Assembly: GCA_014896295.1 (NCBI GenBank)
Contig: JADBKR010000006.1
Location: 62,001 to 126,000 of the forward strand
DNA: 64,000 nucleotides
DNA from: Limnochordaceae bacterium
GTDB taxonomy: Bacteria > Bacillota > Limnochordia > Limnochordales > Geochordaceae
Reading direction: 5' to 3'
Shown: one piece after another, positions 2,687-11,749 of the stretch
Layout: every line of letters begins with the position of its first letter
How positions within the stretch are numbered: the first letter of the stretch is position 1
Position numbers and translations under genes: made by a program
Notes under the pieces: generated by a model
The model's input: only the letters and a program-made list of their open reading frames with translations
Told to the model about the DNA's origin: nothing
Databases searched by the model: none

Positions 2687-2857
2687 ACGGACGGAGTAGG
2701 TTGGTGGTGGGCGAGGAGAGTAAGCGGGGACGGGTGCGGCACGCCACGGTCAGTCGCGCGTACCTCGTGCCGAATTCCTGGAGACGAGATCCTCCGAGAC
2801 GTCCGGTAAGCCGGAGCTGTGAGACCTGGCACGAGCTCCTGGAAAGGCGCGGCGCCC

Positions 2858-5800
2858 GTGCATCCCTGGTGCGCGCGAGCGTGCCTCCTCTGGCTTGCCT
2901 GCAAGAAGGTCAAGCCGGCGCTTCTTGCCGCATATCTGGCCATCATCGGGGTGCTCGTACGGGATGCCCTGTCCCATGCCCTGCCCCTCGGGCCCGTGGC
3001 GCCGGGTGAGCAGGCGGAGATCGGGCCGGAGCAACTTGCTGCTTCCCAACCCGAGCAGCCCTCTGCAGGGGGCTTCTCGCCGTCGTTGCGCGCCTCGGGG
3101 GAGAGCCTGTGGAACGTGCGCCTCGCCTGGGGCGACGTGGCAGGCCTGCTGGGCCAGGAGGGCTACGCCGCCGGGCAAGCCACCTTCCAACAGCAGCTCC
3201 GGTTACGCCTCGAGGGCGACGTGGCCCCTGGCGCCAAGGTGTCGAGCGACCTGGACAACGTGCGGAGCGAAAACCTCCAGCTCATCGGCATCGACTTCAC
3301 CTGGGGCCCCGCCACCGCACACCTCGGGGACGTCCGGCTCCGATCCGAAAGCCGTTACGCCGCCGGCCCGGCCACGTTGAAAGGGTTGAGCGTCGAGGCT
3401 CGCTGGGGAGCCTGGGAGCTGGGGGCGCTGGCAGGGCGAGCCAGGGGGATTCCCGCGACCAAGACGTTTTACGGCCCGAACAGCGAGGATACCACCCGGT
3501 GGGTGCCGGCCGCCCCTCCGGCCTTCTCGCCTTCGTACGCCCCCACGCGGGAGGGGGCGGCGCTGGTCGCAGACGCCAGGGGCGCGCAAGGCTTTCGCCT
3601 GGCGCGGGCTTTCGAGCCCGACTTCATGAAGGTATGGCTCATTCCCTCCGACTCGGCGCCTGCCGCCGGGTGCGGGGAGACGAGGGACGGCCGTTCCTCG
3701 TTGAAGCAGCTTCTCGACGACTTCGGGCTGGGGTATCTGGTCGACGCCGGGCCGGGCAGCACGCCGCGCGGCGTCCTGAAGCCCCAGCCGTACGCTCCGC
3801 CGTCCCAGCTACCCCCGCCCGGCCTTTCGACCGAGGACGTCGCCCGGGCGTTCTTCCCCCTCGACTCCGGCCGGTTCACGGCGGTGGCGAATCCCGAGGG
3901 AACGTCGCCCCGGGGCTACGTCCTCCTGCAGCTCGAAACCCTCGACCTCCTGCGCTCCCACGTCGAGCTCCTCATCGAGCGGTACAACGAGCTCAACCGC
4001 CTGTCAGGCGCCGGCCGGCGTACCTACCCGTTCGTACGGGGAAGCGACCTGGAGCGCCAGTTTCTCTCGCTCCTGCGCCAGTACTACCGCATCGAGGCAG
4101 GAGCGGGCGACTATCCCGGCGCTTCCGGATGGAGCAGCGCCATGGCGCCCCTGTCGGGCACGGGCGCGAGCGGTCCCGTGGGGGCCTCCTGGCTCGGCAC
4201 CTGCCCGGACTACCGGGAGTACCTGGGCACGGGCACCGCCAACCTCGAGGTCGCACCCGATGGCACCTTCGACCGGTCGAAGGCGCCCGACCCTGCCCGC
4301 ACGCCCGCCTCTGTGCTGTACCTGACGGGCAACGCCGCTTTGCAACAGGATTCGCTGGTCGTCGAGGTGGAGCGGCCCGAAGGAAGTGTCGAGCCGGCGG
4401 ACACGTACGGGTTTTCGTGGATGGTGTTCCCCGAGCAGGGCGTGTTGAAGGTTGCCTTCCCGGCGACCATCGGCGGGGCGCCCGGCACCATCGAGGCGTT
4501 GGCCAGGAGCTTCAGGGCGCTGCAGGCCCGGTACCGCTACCGCGTCTCCGGGGGGATCTACGCGCTCGGCACCTCGGTGGCGGCCGGGAGCGAGGAGGTG
4601 CGGCTCAACGGCCAGCAACTGCGCCGGGACGTCGACTACACCATCGACTACGAGACCGGCGTGCTGGTGCTGCTTCGGGACGCAGGCCCGGCCGACACGA
4701 TCGAGGTGCGCTTCGAGTACTTCCGGGGTGGGCCGGGTGCCACCACCGAGTACAACCGCAACGTGTTGGGCGTGAGGGCGGGATGGAAGCCCGGCGATGC
4801 ATGGCGGGTGGCGGGCGAGCTGTTGTTCGCCGGAGACGAGCCCCGGCCGCTGGTCGCACCGGATCGGGCCCGCACCATGCCCAACTCCCACACGGTCGCC
4901 GCCCTCGTGGGAGGCTACCGGGCATGGCAGGGCGTGCGCCCGGAGCAGGGGTTCTGGGCGGAGCTGGACACAGCGTGGTCGCACGACGTCTTCCCGTTCG
5001 ACGACAACGTGCGGGAGCCGCAGGCCAACGAGGTGCAGGCCATTGCGGGGGGAGTATCCGGCGGCGGGTGGGGCGGTTACGTGCTGCTCGGGCACCGGGC
5101 GGGCCTCACCGTAGGGGCGCTGGACGCTGCGGGCCAGGTGATGCAGGGCACATGGCGGCGGTACGACACGGGCGCCGGGTTGAGCGGGACCAACGTGCTG
5201 GCCGTCGCGGGCGCCGCACGCGGCACGGTGTCGGACGGAAGCCTGGGAGACCCCGTGGGCCCGGTCGAGGCGTGGCTGCTCGGGACGGAGTCCGGGCTTA
5301 CGGCGGTCGTCGACGCCGGGCAGGGTCCCGCCAGCTTCGAGAAGGCGACCAGCTACCTGCGCCGCTACGCGTCCGGCGGGCTTCCGTCCAACGAGGTACG
5401 AGACGTGCTTTACGTCGGGGTCGTGCCCCCGCCTGCGAGCCGGGTAGCCCATGGGCCGGCGGACAAGCCCTCGGTCTGGGTGGCGACGGCCAGAGGCCTG
5501 GCCTGGGCGGGGGCCGGGGAGTGGAACGCGACGAGCCTGGGCGATTGGCACGGCCTGGACGCTGCCGCTCTTCCGCCGTGGCCCGAGGGCGGCTTCCGGT
5601 CGCTGGCCTTCGCCCCGGTGGGACCGCACGATCCAGGAGCGCCGCCCGCGGCCGCCGCGCTGCTCGCGGCCGGGCCCGGCGGTGTGCTGTGGATCCCCCT
5701 GTGGGGACTGGAGGAGGGATGGGGAGCGAGGCACCCACCTCCTTTTCGAGGGCCAGCCGGTCGACAGGGTAGCGGCGGTCTGTCTGGACTGCTCGCAAGG

Positions 5801-7880
5801 CTCCACGCAAGGGCTGCACGTGCGCATCTTCGCCGGGGGCGAAGCAGGGTTGGAGTGGCTCGACGTCGCCCCGGGGGGCGGGCCCACCGGCGCGGGCGGG
5901 CAGGGGAGCACGGGCAGCTCGCAAGTCGGCGGGGTGGCCGGTAGGGTGCGCTCCCTGCGGCTTGTGTCCGGGAAGCTCTGGGTGGGCACGGACCGGGGAC
6001 TGTACCGGATCGACCCCGGCGCGCCGGGGCGCCTTCCCGCGGTCACCTATCGCGCAGACCCCGGGATGGCTGGCCCGGTCACGGCCGCCGGCATCGTGCC
6101 GGCCGGCGCCGGGTCGCCGGGACAGCCCTCGCTGCAGCTCTGGGTGGCGACCCGGCCGCAAGACGCCGGACAGCCCGGGCTGTTCACGCTGGATCCGGCG
6201 GTCGACCCGCCGCCGGCGCCGCAGCCGCTGGCCGGGGAGACGTTGCCCTCCGAGCAGGCGTTGCCGGCCCGCGATCCCGCTCGATACCGGGACCCGGAGC
6301 GGCGCGCGGTCTACGACGGGCTCGCCGGCCGGTTCGACCTGGGCTACGCCTGGCCGCAGGGCGGGGTGGAGGCCGGGTACGAGCGGGTGGACGCCCCGTT
6401 TCTCGCCATCAACGACGTCGAGCGCCGGGAGGTAGAGGCGTGGCACGTCGCGGTGCGGCACCGCTTTGGGGAGAGCGTGGGGGTCGAGGTGAGCCATGCC
6501 GACCGCCGGACGGCCGACCCGCGACTTGCCCGCCAGGAGCCGGATGGGCCGGGCGAGTCGCCGGGTACGAGCGTCCGGCACATCCAGCGCACCCTCACCG
6601 ACGAGGCCACGGTCACGTGGACGCTGCCCGTGCCGGCGCCCGCCACGTGGATGGGCCCGCCCGAGCTGCGGGGCAGCGTGCGGTGGGACCGGATCGACCG
6701 GGACGAGGCGGCCGCAGGGTGGGAGGTGACGGTCTCGAGCCGGAGCCTCCAGCTGCAGGAGAGCTTCTGGGACCGGCGCCTCGTCGCGGCGGTCGGGTAC
6801 GAAAACCTGCGCTACCGGGAAGCAGGCGTGGCCGGCTACGTCGCGCACAACCTGCTGGCCGACCTGACGGCGACTCCCGCGCAGGACGTGACGCTGAGCG
6901 TGCGATTCCGCTATCCGCTCAGGGTGCACGACCTGGACGCTGCCGCAGGTTGGGCGTACGGGGCGGCGGCGTCGCGCCTCGAGGGCGCCCAGGACCTGCA
7001 GCTGGGAGCCACCGCCAGCCGCAACCTGGGCCTGGTGCGCACCACGCTCGACCTCAGCCAGCAGTCGGGCTGGCAGGTGACCGACCGGGGAGTGACCCCG
7101 GACCGCCTCGAGCGGCAGGCCCGGGTGTCGCTCGCTGCGCCCACGCTGGCGGCGGGGCCGTGGACGTTCTCCCCGGCCGGGCGGATCGAATGGGCCTATA
7201 CAGGTTCGCCGCTTTCACGGGCGACGACCACGGGCGCCGGCGGCAGCCTTCAGGCCGCGTGGCAACCTGCCTCCCTCAATCTGACGCTGGATGCGAGCCG
7301 CCGGTACCAGCAGGCGGAGTTTCCGGGGGCGCGGCGCGCCGTGGACGACCGGCTGTCCTTGACGGCCGGCACCGAGGCGTTTGCGTGGGTCGACCCGTCC
7401 CTCACCCTTTCCCGGGACGCCCGCCACGTCACCACCCTCGGTGACGGGCGCCAGACCACGACGCAGACGTACGCCGCCACGCTGCGGCTCGGGTGGAAAG
7501 GTATGACCCGGTGGCCCCAATCGACACGCCTCGGAGTGCGCTGGACCGGCGAACCAACGGCCGCAAAGGGCAGCCGCAGCGTGGAGTGGAGTCACTCCGT
7601 GGCATGGGAACCGGAGGGGCCGTGGCGCTTTTCTGCCTCGGCCGGCGGTGCCCGGGGCGAGGCGTGGGATGCGGGGGCGGCGCCGAAACCCCAGTGGCGG
7701 CTCGAAGTATCGGGCCAGGTGAGCTACCGGTTCTCGGCCCGGTGGAGCGGCGGGCTGGAGGTAGGCTACGCCCGCGGGCAACAACCCCCGAGCTGGATGA
7801 GCGCGGGCTCGATCGCCGCCGGAGACCCCGTCCCGTTCCAGGCGGGGTGGACACGCCTCTTCGTGCAGGCCACGTTTTGA
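2858..7880 (+). CDS. SprA-like giant surface/outer-membrane protein with beta-propeller repeats; frameshift near 5721
   Basis: With one base removed from the GGGG at 5721-5724 this is a single protein of about 1673 residues. A signal-like hydrophobic stretch lies at residues 18-38. Residues 108-200 (FQQQLRLRLEGDV, LGDVRLRSESRYAAGPATLK) resemble the repeated N-terminal unit of SprA, the type 9 secretion translocon. Around residue 580 comes VRLNGQQLRRDVDYTIDYET, the hallmark SprA-type strand motif. Residues 775-1055 hold two-component-regulator-type propeller repeats (GLPSNEVRDVLYV, LWVGTDRGLYRID). The C-terminal 550 residues alternate as beta strands and end in TRLFVQATF, a barrel-type terminal aromatic. 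GTG 2858 gives the signal sequence; GTG 2819 is possible. Family assignment is by eye. Confidence 0.62.
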
Positions 7881-8226: not shown

Positions 8227-10737
8227 GTGACGTTACGGGTGTCTAAGCTCTGGGGCCTGGCAGCCGGCTTGCTGCTGATCGTCCTGCTCGTGGCCGCCGC
8301 TGCGGGTGCGGCGCCGGGCAGCGCGACAGGGAGCCGGAGCGGTGCCCGGCTCGACCCGGCGCTCAAGTGGCTTCTCGAGCAGGCGGAGAAGGAGAAGGAG
8401 ATCGATCTGGCGCCGCTCGCCGGCCTGTTTGCGGTGTACCGGGACAACCGGCCCGTCACGGTTCCCATGTTCCGGCCTTCGCAAACGGGCATCCTGGTGC
8501 CGGGCGTCCCATCCCAGGGCTCCGCGGGGGGTCAGGGCCTGAAGCCCTCGGGAGCGGGTGCCGGCAGCGTGGCGTCCAGAGGAGTGCCCGCCGACCGGTT
8601 CGGAGTCTTCGTCATCACCGACAACCCGGGGGTGCTGGCCTCGGTCGGGGCCCGTCCCAATACGGTGGCGGGCAACGTGGTCACCGCCCACCTGACCCTC
8701 GACCAGATTCGCCGCCTGAAGGACGCGCCCGGGGTGCAGGCCATCCGGCTCGGGCGCCGGGTCCGGTTGACGCTCGATCGGAGCGTGCCGGAGATCGGCG
8801 CGCAGGTGCTGCAGACCATGCAGCCTTTCCTGCGGGGAAAGGGCGTCATTTCGGGCGCGGTCGACACGGGCATCTCGTACCTGCACAAAGACTTCCGGGC
8901 CCCCAAAGGGCCGGGCGATCAGGAGGAGCTGGCGTCACGCATTCTGTTCATCTGGGACCAGATGCCCGGCATCAGCTACTTCGGGCCGGGTTGGCCGATG
9001 CCGTGCGCGCCGGCCGATTGCCCCTACAACCCGCCGGCGGGGTTCGGCTACGGCACGGAGTACACGAAAGCGCAGATCGAGCAGGACATCGCCAGCGGCG
9101 TCAGGGATGCGTACGACCCACGGGCCATCGTCAAGGCCGTCGACGACTACGGGCACGGCACGCACGTGGCGGGGATCCAGGCCTCCGACGGCAGCTCGCA
9201 GCCGGCCGGATACCCGGCTCGCTACGTCGGCATGGCGCCCGACTCCGACATCATCATGGTGCGGACGACCCTCCACGACACCGACATCGTGGACGGGGTC
9301 GCGTACATCTTCCGGAAGGCCGACGAGCTGGGCCGGCCTGCCGTGGTCAACCTGAGCCTGGGCGGCCAGTTCGGGCCGCACGACGGGACGGAGGCCTTCG
9401 ACCTCGCCGTCTCCAACCTGGCGAGCAAGCCCGGGCGCATCGTGGTCGTGTCGGCGGGCAACGAGGGATCCGACCGCATCCACGCCGGCGCCGAGGTGAC
9501 GGCGGGCGGGCCGGCTACGTCGGCGAGGTTGACGCTGCCTGACGCGGACCCCTCGACGGCGGGAAACCAGCCCGACCCCGACGGGTATGCCATCTCCCTC
9601 TGGTACCCGGAGGCCAGCCGGTTCACCGTGTCCCTCACCTCGCCCGGCGGTAACACGTATAGCGCGGCCTGGGGGACTGAGCCGGAAGCACCGATCGTCA
9701 CTCCCGACGGATGCATCCTGGTCTCCAACGGCCCGCCGGCCCTGGCGTCGATCGGGTCCGTGCAGCCCGAAACCACGGCCAACCAGGTGGAGATCGAGGT
9801 GCTGGGGTCGCAAGGAGCACCGGGCTGTCCGGCTGACGCCGCCACCGGCACCTGGACGCTCACCGTGAGCCCGGGGGCGGGTTCCCCCGCCGGCCGCTGG
9901 GACGGCTGGATCTACTTCGGCAACGCGACCTTCGACGTGCAGTACGCCGACCCCAACATGACCGTCGGCTCGCCGGGCGTGGCGAAGGGCGTCATCACGG
10001 TCGGGGCGTACATGACCCGGGATCGCTGGCAGAGCATCAACGGCAACGTCGTGGTGCCGCGCACCGAGCCCGTGGGCAGCTACGCTCCCTTCACGAGCCG
10101 CGGCCCCACCCGCGACGGCCGCCAGAAGCCGGAGGTGAGCGCGCCCGGTTCCTGGATCGTGGCGACGGCCGCGAAGGAGTCCGACCTGTACGCGGCGACG
10201 AACTCCACCTTCGGCCCGCAGTACCTGGTCGTCCCCGATCGGGAGCACCTGTCGCTTCAGGGCACGAGCATGGCCGCCCCGCACGTGGCGGGTCTGGCGG
10301 CGCAGATGCTGCAGGCGGTGCCCGGGCTCACCACGCCGGACGTCCGGGACCTGCTGACGAGCACGGCCCGTTCCGACCTCTACACCGGCGTCACGCCCAA
10401 CGTCGTGTGGGGCTACGGCAAGATCGCGGCCGACCGGGCCTACGCCGCCGAGGTGTCGCCGCGCCAGTTCGCCATCCGCGTCGGTCCCAACCCGGCCAGG
10501 GAAGTGGCCACTTTCTACTATTCGCTCGACCGGGACTACCCCTCCGTCACGCTGCTGGTCTACACCGTGGCCGGCCAGCGGGTCTACGAGCAACCTCTGC
10601 CCTCGACGGCCGGCTCCCACTTCGTCCACTGGAACCTGACCAACACCTCGGGCCAGCCCCTGGCCACGGGGATGTACCTGTTCGTGCTCAAGGCCGGAGA
10701 ACGCACGAGTACCGGCAAGCTCCTGGTCGCCCGCTGA
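8227..10737 (+). CDS. Secreted subtilisin-like (S8) serine protease with FlgD/type 9 sorting-like C-terminal domain
   Basis: Exported protease of about 836 residues. A signal peptide (LWGLAAGLLLIVLLVAAAAG) is followed by a propeptide-like region. The S8 domain has Asp213 (GAVDTGISY), His310 (GHGTHVAG), oxyanion Asn412 (SAGNEG) and Ser681 (GTSMAAPHVAG). A beta-rich insertion at about 440-570 sits between Asn412 and Ser681. The last 90 residues (VGPNPAREVATFYYSL to ATGMYLFVLKAG) match the FlgD-Ig/T9SS sorting-domain pattern. The GTG start at 8227 has GGGAGG eight bases upstream and gives a clean signal peptide; the frame open back to 7990 is not signal-like. It sits between the SprA-like and PorV-like genes, suggesting it is their cargo (inference). 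Confidence 0.88.
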   Translation: MTLRVSKLWGLAAGLLLIVLLVAAAAGAAPGSATGSRSGARLDPALKWLLEQAEKEKEIDLAPLAGLFAVYRDNRPVTVPMFRPSQTGILVPGVPSQGSAGGQGLKPSGAGAGSVASRGVPADRFGVFVITDNPGVLASVGARPNTVAGNVVTAHLTLDQIRRLKDAPGVQAIRLGRRVRLTLDRSVPEIGAQVLQTMQPFLRGKGVISGAVDTGISYLHKDFRAPKGPGDQEELASRILFIWDQMPGISYFGPGWPMPCAPADCPYNPPAGFGYGTEYTKAQIEQDIASGVRDAYDPRAIVKAVDDYGHGTHVAGIQASDGSSQPAGYPARYVGMAPDSDIIMVRTTLHDTDIVDGVAYIFRKADELGRPAVVNLSLGGQFGPHDGTEAFDLAVSNLASKPGRIVVVSAGNEGSDRIHAGAEVTAGGPATSARLTLPDADPSTAGNQPDPDGYAISLWYPEASRFTVSLTSPGGNTYSAAWGTEPEAPIVTPDGCILVSNGPPALASIGSVQPETTANQVEIEVLGSQGAPGCPADAATGTWTLTVSPGAGSPAGRWDGWIYFGNATFDVQYADPNMTVGSPGVAKGVITVGAYMTRDRWQSINGNVVVPRTEPVGSYAPFTSRGPTRDGRQKPEVSAPGSWIVATAAKESDLYAATNSTFGPQYLVVPDREHLSLQGTSMAAPHVAGLAAQMLQAVPGLTTPDVRDLLTSTARSDLYTGVTPNVVWGYGKIAADRAYAAEVSPRQFAIRVGPNPAREVATFYYSLDRDYPSVTLLVYTVAGQRVYEQPLPSTAGSHFVHWNLTNTSGQPLATGMYLFVLKAGERTSTGKLLVAR

Positions 10738-10777: not shown

Positions 10778-11749
10778 ATGCGAACGCATGACAGCCGGCA
10801 GCGGCAGGGGTATCCGGCGGGTGGGCCGCCCGTGGCACGGCCCGCGACCCGGCATGCCCCGCCCGTGGTGGCAGCGGCGGTGCTCCTGGCCCTGGCTGCG
10901 GCGCTGCCTTGGCCGGCCGCGGCTCGAGCCGCCGACTACGCCCAGACGATGGCGGCCGGGGGCATCGGGTACAGCGCCCGGTTGCTGGGCATGGCGGGCG
11001 TATCGGTCGGCCTGGTCGACGAGACCGCCACGCTCTTCACCAATCCCGCGGCGCTGGCCCTGGTGAGGCGTCCCCACGTGACCACCCTGTACACCCGGCC
11101 GTTCGGCGAGGCCGACCACGTCGCCGTGAGCGGCGGCCTCCCCGGCTTCGCGGCGGGCGGCTCGCTGACCACGAGCGCCGTCGACCGAACGGACGAGTAC
11201 GGCCTGCCCGCAGGCGGCGCCGCCGGGTATCAGGAGCTGACCGTGGCTCTCGGCGGTGCGGCCGCCGTGGCGCGAGCGGCCGGCGCCACGCTCTACGCGG
11301 GCGGGGCTGCGCGCTACTACCGGCAGGCCGTGGCCGACGTGCAGGGCCAGGCGTTTACCGCCGACGTGGGCCTGCTCGTCGAGGCGGGGGCGGCCCAGGT
11401 GGGGATCAGCCGCCGCAACCTGCGGGCGGGGGCGATCGGCGTGGTGCGCTACCAGGACGGCGTCGAAGACCCGCTTGACCCGGCCACGACCATCGGAGCC
11501 GCCGTGCGGTTGGGGCCGGTGCTGGTGGCGGCCGACCATGGCCTCGAGGATGCGACCACCCGGGTGGGCGCCGAAGCGTGGGTGGGACAACTGGCGGTGC
11601 GAGGTGGCGTGGCCTTCGCCCCCGGAGGGGAGCGCCAGGTGAGCCTGGGGGCCGGGGTGGCGCTCGGGGCGGTCAAGGTCGACTACGCGTACCTCATGCA
11701 CCCGGCCCTTCCGGACTCTCACCGCCTGTCGCTCTCCGTCGACCTCTGA
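10778..11749 (+). CDS. PorV/UPF0164-like outer-membrane beta-barrel protein
   Basis: Protein of 323 residues with an N-terminal signal peptide (hydrophobic core VVAAAVLLALAAALPW, likely cleavage after ARA near residue 51). The start of the mature part, SARLLGMAGVSVGLVDETAT followed by LFTNPAALAL, follows the PorV/PorQ/UPF0164 signature (G-A-R-xLGMGGAxVAxxDD-xxxxxNPAxL). The remainder is alternating beta-strand sequence ending in SLSVDL. In Bacteroidota, PorV is the outer-membrane shuttle that works with SprA. AGAGGAGGT lies about ten bases upstream of the ATG. It directly follows the protease with a 40-base gap, probably in the same transcript. Confidence 0.68.
   Translation: MRTHDSRQRQGYPAGGPPVARPATRHAPPVVAAAVLLALAAALPWPAAARAADYAQTMAAGGIGYSARLLGMAGVSVGLVDETATLFTNPAALALVRRPHVTTLYTRPFGEADHVAVSGGLPGFAAGGSLTTSAVDRTDEYGLPAGGAAGYQELTVALGGAAAVARAAGATLYAGGAARYYRQAVADVQGQAFTADVGLLVEAGAAQVGISRRNLRAGAIGVVRYQDGVEDPLDPATTIGAAVRLGPVLVAADHGLEDATTRVGAEAWVGQLAVRGGVAFAPGGERQVSLGAGVALGAVKVDYAYLMHPALPDSHRLSLSVDL

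Follow-up and report, generated by a model that had tools for sequence, protein, structure and literature searches.

In the type 9 secretion system (T9SS) of Bacteroidota, substrates pass through the outer-membrane pore SprA, a carrier takes them over, and the energy of a motor chain ejects them (PMC12635249; this and the other papers are cited here for the parts of their text that were available). Substrates with type A tails have one PorV in common, while dedicated carriers serve those with type B tails (PMC12635249, PMC12618676, PMC9143113). The available text of PMC11285876 gives T9SS genes as absent from phyla outside Bacteroidota or the Fibrobacterota–Chlorobiota–Bacteroidota (FCB) superphylum, that of PMC12611786 calls SprA 'FCB-specific', and that of a 2016 survey, which included diderm Firmicutes, records no T9SS outside Bacteroidetes (PMC4793230). 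A search by title and by the start of the abstract, with preprints and most subscription papers outside its coverage, returned no report of a T9SS in Limnochordia or other Bacillota. We analyzed a stretch of 64,000 nucleotides from the genome of a Limnochordaceae bacterium of the phylum Bacillota (the window), in which a subtilisin-like protease with a sorting-like C-terminal tail is encoded between an SprA-like gene and a PorV-like gene. We conclude that this three-gene cassette of diderm Bacillota is probably related to type 9 secretion, in a form that is reduced and dedicated to its substrate. Its elements in the window are as follows.

2819–7880, + strand: SprA-like outer-membrane barrel gene (TIGR04189 match; start approximate)
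4565–4660, + strand: LGTSVAAGSEEVRLNGQQLRRDVDYTIDYETG, the SprA-like motif that is most conserved, within the part matched by the SprA model (residues 568–633)
8227–10737, + strand: S8 (subtilisin-like) protease bearing the tail (Peptidase_S8, expectation value (E) 1.9e-40; open reading frame (ORF) open from 7990)
10471–10734, + strand: predicted C-terminal sorting-like domain, a type A T9SS-like C-terminal domain (CTD) of 88 residues that reaches the last residue of the protein (TIGR04183, FlgD_ig, AlphaFold model)
10778–11749, + strand: gene for a PorV-like outer-membrane carrier, following the protease after 40 bp (NF033709 match)

The first-pass annotation of this DNA, made from the sequence alone, had proposed a FlgD/type 9 sorting-like domain at the end of the protease and quoted four motifs from it. 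All four are found in frame at the C-terminus, with GKLLVAR last. AIRVGPNPA begins at 10471, GKLLVAR finishes at 10734, and the stop codon of the protease ORF extends to 10737. The domain itself was recognized by both of the models concerned, each above its curated cut-off. FlgD_ig is the best Pfam family for the tail (35.4 bits, cut-off 27), and the NCBIfam model TIGR04183, 'T9SS type A sorting domain', gives the window protein 25.1 bits (cut-off 23), a score that rises to 31.4 bits when the tail domain is scanned alone. TIGR04183 also matched all 27 tails that were scanned (E 0.01). The protease probably starts at GTG 8227, which is preceded by GGAGG, and has a signal-peptide-like stretch at its N-terminus. 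Its sequence has the D, H, and S motifs of an active subtilase, at positions 8863, 9145, and 10261.

An AlphaFold model of the tail, built from 20 aligned tails, has a predicted local distance difference test score (pLDDT) of 92.4 and predicts seven strands in a 3 + 4 β-sandwich, as in solved T9SS CTDs. The best match of this model in the PDB is the CTD of PorU (Z = 12.6, root-mean-square deviation 1.8, 88 of 88 residues, 27% identity). The CTDs of PorZ and mirolase are also high among the matches, after PorU among the T9SS proteins, and the Foldseek list includes the T9SS-bound tails of NucA and FspA. However, the fold alone is not decisive, because a domain of Bacillus Vpr (Z = 11.5), Fn3 domains (Z = 9–10), and FlgD (Z = 9.3) are also near the tail. 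Could the tail be an ordinary immunoglobulin (Ig)/Fn3-like accessory domain, acting in stability or in the binding of substrate or envelope and not in sorting, whose likeness to FlgD_ig and to T9SS tails is merely that of a shared fold? These structural matches speak for such a domain, as do weak matches of FlgD models to 18 of the 27 tails. Against it, the window tail scores above the cut-off of the type A T9SS model, related tails stand at the extreme C-terminus of S8, M6, RCC1, β-helix, and lamin-tail/PKD proteins, and the tails keep company with PorV-like and SprA-like genes, as described below. We therefore regard an accessory domain as improbable. The comparison with the Ig-like domain of FlgD, the flagellar hook cap, is similar: the β-sandwich is related, whereas the proteins that end in the tail are secreted proteases with outer-membrane genes as neighbors.

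The first-pass annotation had suggested a search of the same genome for further copies of the domain. When the whole genome was searched with the 20-row tail alignment (E 0.01 or better), exactly two copies were found, at the ends of two otherwise unrelated proteases, the S8 protease of the window and an M6-type metalloprotease, P0001. The naming of P0001 is based on Pfam M6 matches to its relatives and on its HEYGHAIGLPD sequence, which we take to be the M6-type zinc motif. We rejected the alternatives that the tail is unique to the window protease or confined to FlgD, since both genomic copies are on proteases; neither is on a flagellar hook-assembly protein. Both copies sit in loci with PorV-like and SprA-like genes, in the order SprA-like, protease, PorV-like in the window and protease, PorV-like, SprA-like in the second locus. 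Elsewhere in the order and the phylum, the tail is borne by unrelated S8, M6, RCC1-repeat, β-helix, and lamin-tail/PKD proteins, and the β-helix proteins recur in another family of the class. In the T9SS of Bacteroidota and the FCB group, too, unrelated passengers end in a tail of this type. The sorting role suggested at the outset is thus supported by the shared tail together with the T9SS-homologous neighbors, from which we infer the sorting function itself.

A different kind of tail was seen in the genome G058, where the short contigs L088, L089, and L090 encode classic PNPFNP-type T9SS tails on leucine-rich repeat and chondroitinase B passengers. No SprA model match was found in G058 at E 0.1, and this genome may be contaminated from an FCB genome.

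The gene directly downstream of the protease had been called PorV-like, and it is a PorV homologue by two measures. NF033709 (PorV/PorQ) matches the window carrier with E 4.9e-14 and 53 bits, and a profile of the carrier family has PorV bound to SprA as its best PDB match (E 1.2e-13), with FadL-type barrels next. All 29 carriers scanned matched NF033709 (E 0.01), and 5 of 60 relatives exceeded its cut-off. Carriers of the PorP/SprF type were considered and set aside, their model matching 2 of the 29 carriers, weakly.

In the phylum search, where at most the best 13 tail candidates and at most the best 6 PorV candidates per genome were scored, a PorV-like gene was found on the same strand, no more than 600 bp downstream, for at least 54 of 77 tails. 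This is a lower bound because of the way in which the places of tails and PorV-like genes were compiled; the PorV rows of tail-less genomes were omitted, and two PorV places in the genome G004 were added. The distances among tails correlate with those among the neighboring carriers (22 pairs, r = 0.61, permutation p = 5e-5), also within the order (14 pairs, r = 0.54, permutation p = 5e-5). Part of this correlation can be attributed to shared ancestry. The arrangement differs from that of T9SS, in which one PorV is shared, since most tails here own a PorV-like gene. It resembles instead the type B CTD systems, SprB–SprF of Flavobacterium johnsoniae and PG1035–PorP of Porphyromonas gingivalis, in which the substrate gene adjoins its own carrier (PMC12618676, PMC9143113). 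Unlike those systems, however, the tails here are type A-like (27 of 27) and the carriers belong to the PorV family (29 of 29). In our reading, a type A-like tail and a PorV-like carrier follow here the one-substrate-one-carrier logic of the type B/PorP/SprF systems of Bacteroidota.

The gene upstream of the protease had been described as possibly translocon-like, and it can now be named more closely as an SprA homologue, by TIGR04189 and by a profile of the N-terminal half. TIGR04189 (SprA/Sov) matches the window gene with E 1.8e-8 and 32 bits over a single stretch of 66 residues. The model matches 19 of 20 pore proteins, far under its equivalog cut-off where scores are shown, and none of 60 relatives is above that cut-off. 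The proteins of this family have about 1,350–1,690 residues, and 20 full-length members were aligned. The profile of the N-terminal half, which precedes a propeller domain, has SprA as its sole PDB match at E 10 (best E 5.1e-8), and collinear stretches of it align to SprA 147–260 and 682–807. The half that follows the propeller gives weak matches to the outer-membrane barrels KdgM (E 0.0058) and FapF (E 0.2). Judged by its sequence, the upstream gene is a distant relative of SprA.

One family member (G182, L153) was modelled over its last 1,198 residues, without the N-terminal piece, and the model has a pLDDT of 84.1 and a predicted template modelling score of 0.66. It predicts 25 strands of at least 10 residues after the propeller and four before it, and Foldseek places three SprA chains on top (E about 1e-13). 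A complete Reg_prop-type propeller is inserted within this SprA-like barrel protein (residues 400–698 of the model), and the PorZ model matches 7 of the 20 pore proteins. PorZ, of the T9SS attachment complex, has the same type of propeller, although it is a separate CTD protein, while the propeller here lies within the barrel protein. A single protein may thus unite the functions of a pore and of a PorZ-like protein. With its inserted propeller, the pore has 1,350–1,690 residues, against 2,403 in the solved SprA.

Another explanation is that these proteins form a surface complex without translocation, in which the SprA-like barrel has a structural or binding role, the PorV-like protein is a FadL-type transporter, and the protease arrives at the surface via some other route and docks there. 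The FadL-type barrels that follow PorV in the carrier profile would fit this, as would the low identity of the pore to SprA and the resemblance of its propeller to ligand-sensing domains. However, the carrier profile favors PorV by ten orders of magnitude, the N-terminal half of the pore finds SprA only, and the tail, PorV, and SprA, which make up the T9SS core, are found together here. We consider a complex of this kind highly unlikely.

Much shorter SprA-like proteins, of 596 and 805 residues, are encoded in L164 (7087–8874) and L165 (7681–10095). They adjoin M6 tail proteins and PorV-like genes, and each has, close to its own N-terminus, an Ig domain that resembles a CTD.

Members of the SprA-like family were detected in 17 of 72 genomes of the class and in 29 of 398 genomes of the phylum. 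Tails occur in 30 of the 398 genomes, and 24 have both (Fisher 3e-28, for genomes that are related and not independent). Of the 36 stretches that were fetched and have a pore match, 19 contain all three genes; L052 and L053 are counted here as one, and L160, where a third gene is perhaps cut by the contig end, is excluded from the 19. Several other fetched stretches are cut by contig ends, and the tail genes of G004, G008, and G010 are elsewhere in the genome. When the flanking ORFs were compared and the resulting list was judged by reading, no fourth gene family specific to the cassette was found; the other shared clusters consisted of transporter genes of a general kind or of frame shadows cast by the three genes. 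The hosts are diderm, as are those of T9SS. Omp85, which served as our criterion for a diderm envelope, was found in 21 of 22 carrier genomes, that of the window included, and two membranes are described by electron microscopy in Limnochordia isolates, in the available text of PMC11456536.

A second, more distant SprA-like group is found in one family of the class. A divergently oriented PorV-like gene lies beside it in 8 of 9 fetched stretches (L059–L063, L066, L067, and L069), and the tail-bearing β-helix proteins of this group (L091–L097) are on another contig.

Does the cassette work with a motor? GldM was found in none of 21 genomes, with control genomes, none of them T9SS-positive, silent too. 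GldL exceeded its cut-off in none of 22 genomes, again without a T9SS-positive control genome. For want of such a control, the absence of GldL and GldM is only suggestive. An alternative is that the cassette belongs to a complete T9SS with its motor, whose GldKLMN, SprE, and PorU have simply diverged too far to be picked up by our searches. The pore and the carrier are themselves strongly diverged, no control was positive for GldM, no search was made for GldK, GldN, SprE, PorU, or PorQ, and weak GldL matches below the cut-off were seen in 3 of the 22 genomes. However, unrelated control genomes gave weak GldL matches as well, neither GldM nor a GldL above its cut-off was detected in the genomes searched, and no fourth family is conserved beside the cassette. 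On balance, we think a complete T9SS rather unlikely. The lack of a GldL or GldM above cut-off, and the host phylum Bacillota, set the cassette apart from the known T9SS, with which it shares a homologous pore (SprA/Sov) and carrier (PorV). We have not filed it as a bona fide T9SS, because the SprA equivalog score is not reached and the motor was not found.

We propose the following mechanism for the reduced, substrate-dedicated relative of type 9 secretion. The protease would be taken to the periplasm by Sec, consistent with its signal-like N-terminus. The adjacent SprA-like barrel would then recognize the folded C-terminal β-sandwich and provide the channel, a function suggested by its homology to SprA. 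Outside, the PorV-like barrel encoded directly downstream would take over the tail as a private carrier, and it probably holds the protease at the cell surface. This last step is proposed on the basis of homology, adjacency, and correlated divergence. The system is homologous to T9SS in three parts and likely works in a similar way. If the pore serves only one or a few private substrate–carrier pairs, no forced ejection of the carrier would be needed, and no GldKLMN chain would be required. A motorless type 9 transport of this form in diderm Bacillota, with one substrate, one carrier, and one pore, is a possibility that we put forward tentatively.

Several results weigh against the view that the cassette is a relative of type 9 secretion. 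The 53 bits of the window carrier are under the curated NF033709 cut-off of 90, and the 32 bits of the window pore ORF fall short of the curated SprA/Sov equivalog score of 200. The template modelling score of the L153 model against SprA in Foldseek is just 0.29. VIA-align of the barrel model aligned only the propeller (residues 400–698), and, since the propeller fills the alignment, this result is neither for nor against SprA. The proximity of the Vpr, Fn3, and FlgD folds and the GldM and GldL negatives, given above with their controls, belong here as well. As many as 23 of the 77 tails lack a detected downstream carrier, three of them at contig ends. The pore was found without the tail in five genomes, and the tail without the pore in six. 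Within the genome G004, the tail–carrier correlation is not significant (7 pairs, r = 0.45, p = 0.066), and two G004 carriers behind different tails (L054 8446–9282 and L080 11868–12704) are 98% identical, while the tails that precede them are 52% identical, a pattern suggestive of a recent duplication or a gene conversion.

A frame break of one base, at about 5.7 kb, splits the SprA-like gene of the window into two overlapping ORFs, 2819–5944 and 5451–7880. Frame breaks are found in both SprA-like genes of the window's genome and in its second PorV-like gene (second locus, L051 10229–16573). The single-contig genome G071, which belongs to the same species and is 97.9% identical over 14 kb, has both loci; there the second PorV-like gene is whole, and so are the SprA-like genes, with 1,689 and 1,687 residues. 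A frame break as a conserved feature was thus rejected. Because the G071 copies are intact, the breaks are either assembly errors or strain-specific, and the comparison suggests that they reflect indel errors in the assembly.

The analysis adds to the first-pass annotation that most tails have a private downstream PorV-like gene, that conservation of the cassette extends across the phylum, and that no T9SS motor was found with it. An operon-sized, reduced relative in diderm Bacillota would widen the range of T9SS beyond the FCB superphylum, and it would give a minimal natural version for structural and reconstitution work. It would also put to the test the proposed origin of type 9 transport in the gliding machinery (available text of PMC12635249). 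If the motorless form is correct, the core of pore, carrier, and tail would either predate the gliding machinery or be distinct from it, and the FCB group would not have invented T9SS. For the organism itself, the cassette suggests a route across the outer membrane for surface proteases, in a lineage on which the question of diderm and monoderm envelopes centers.
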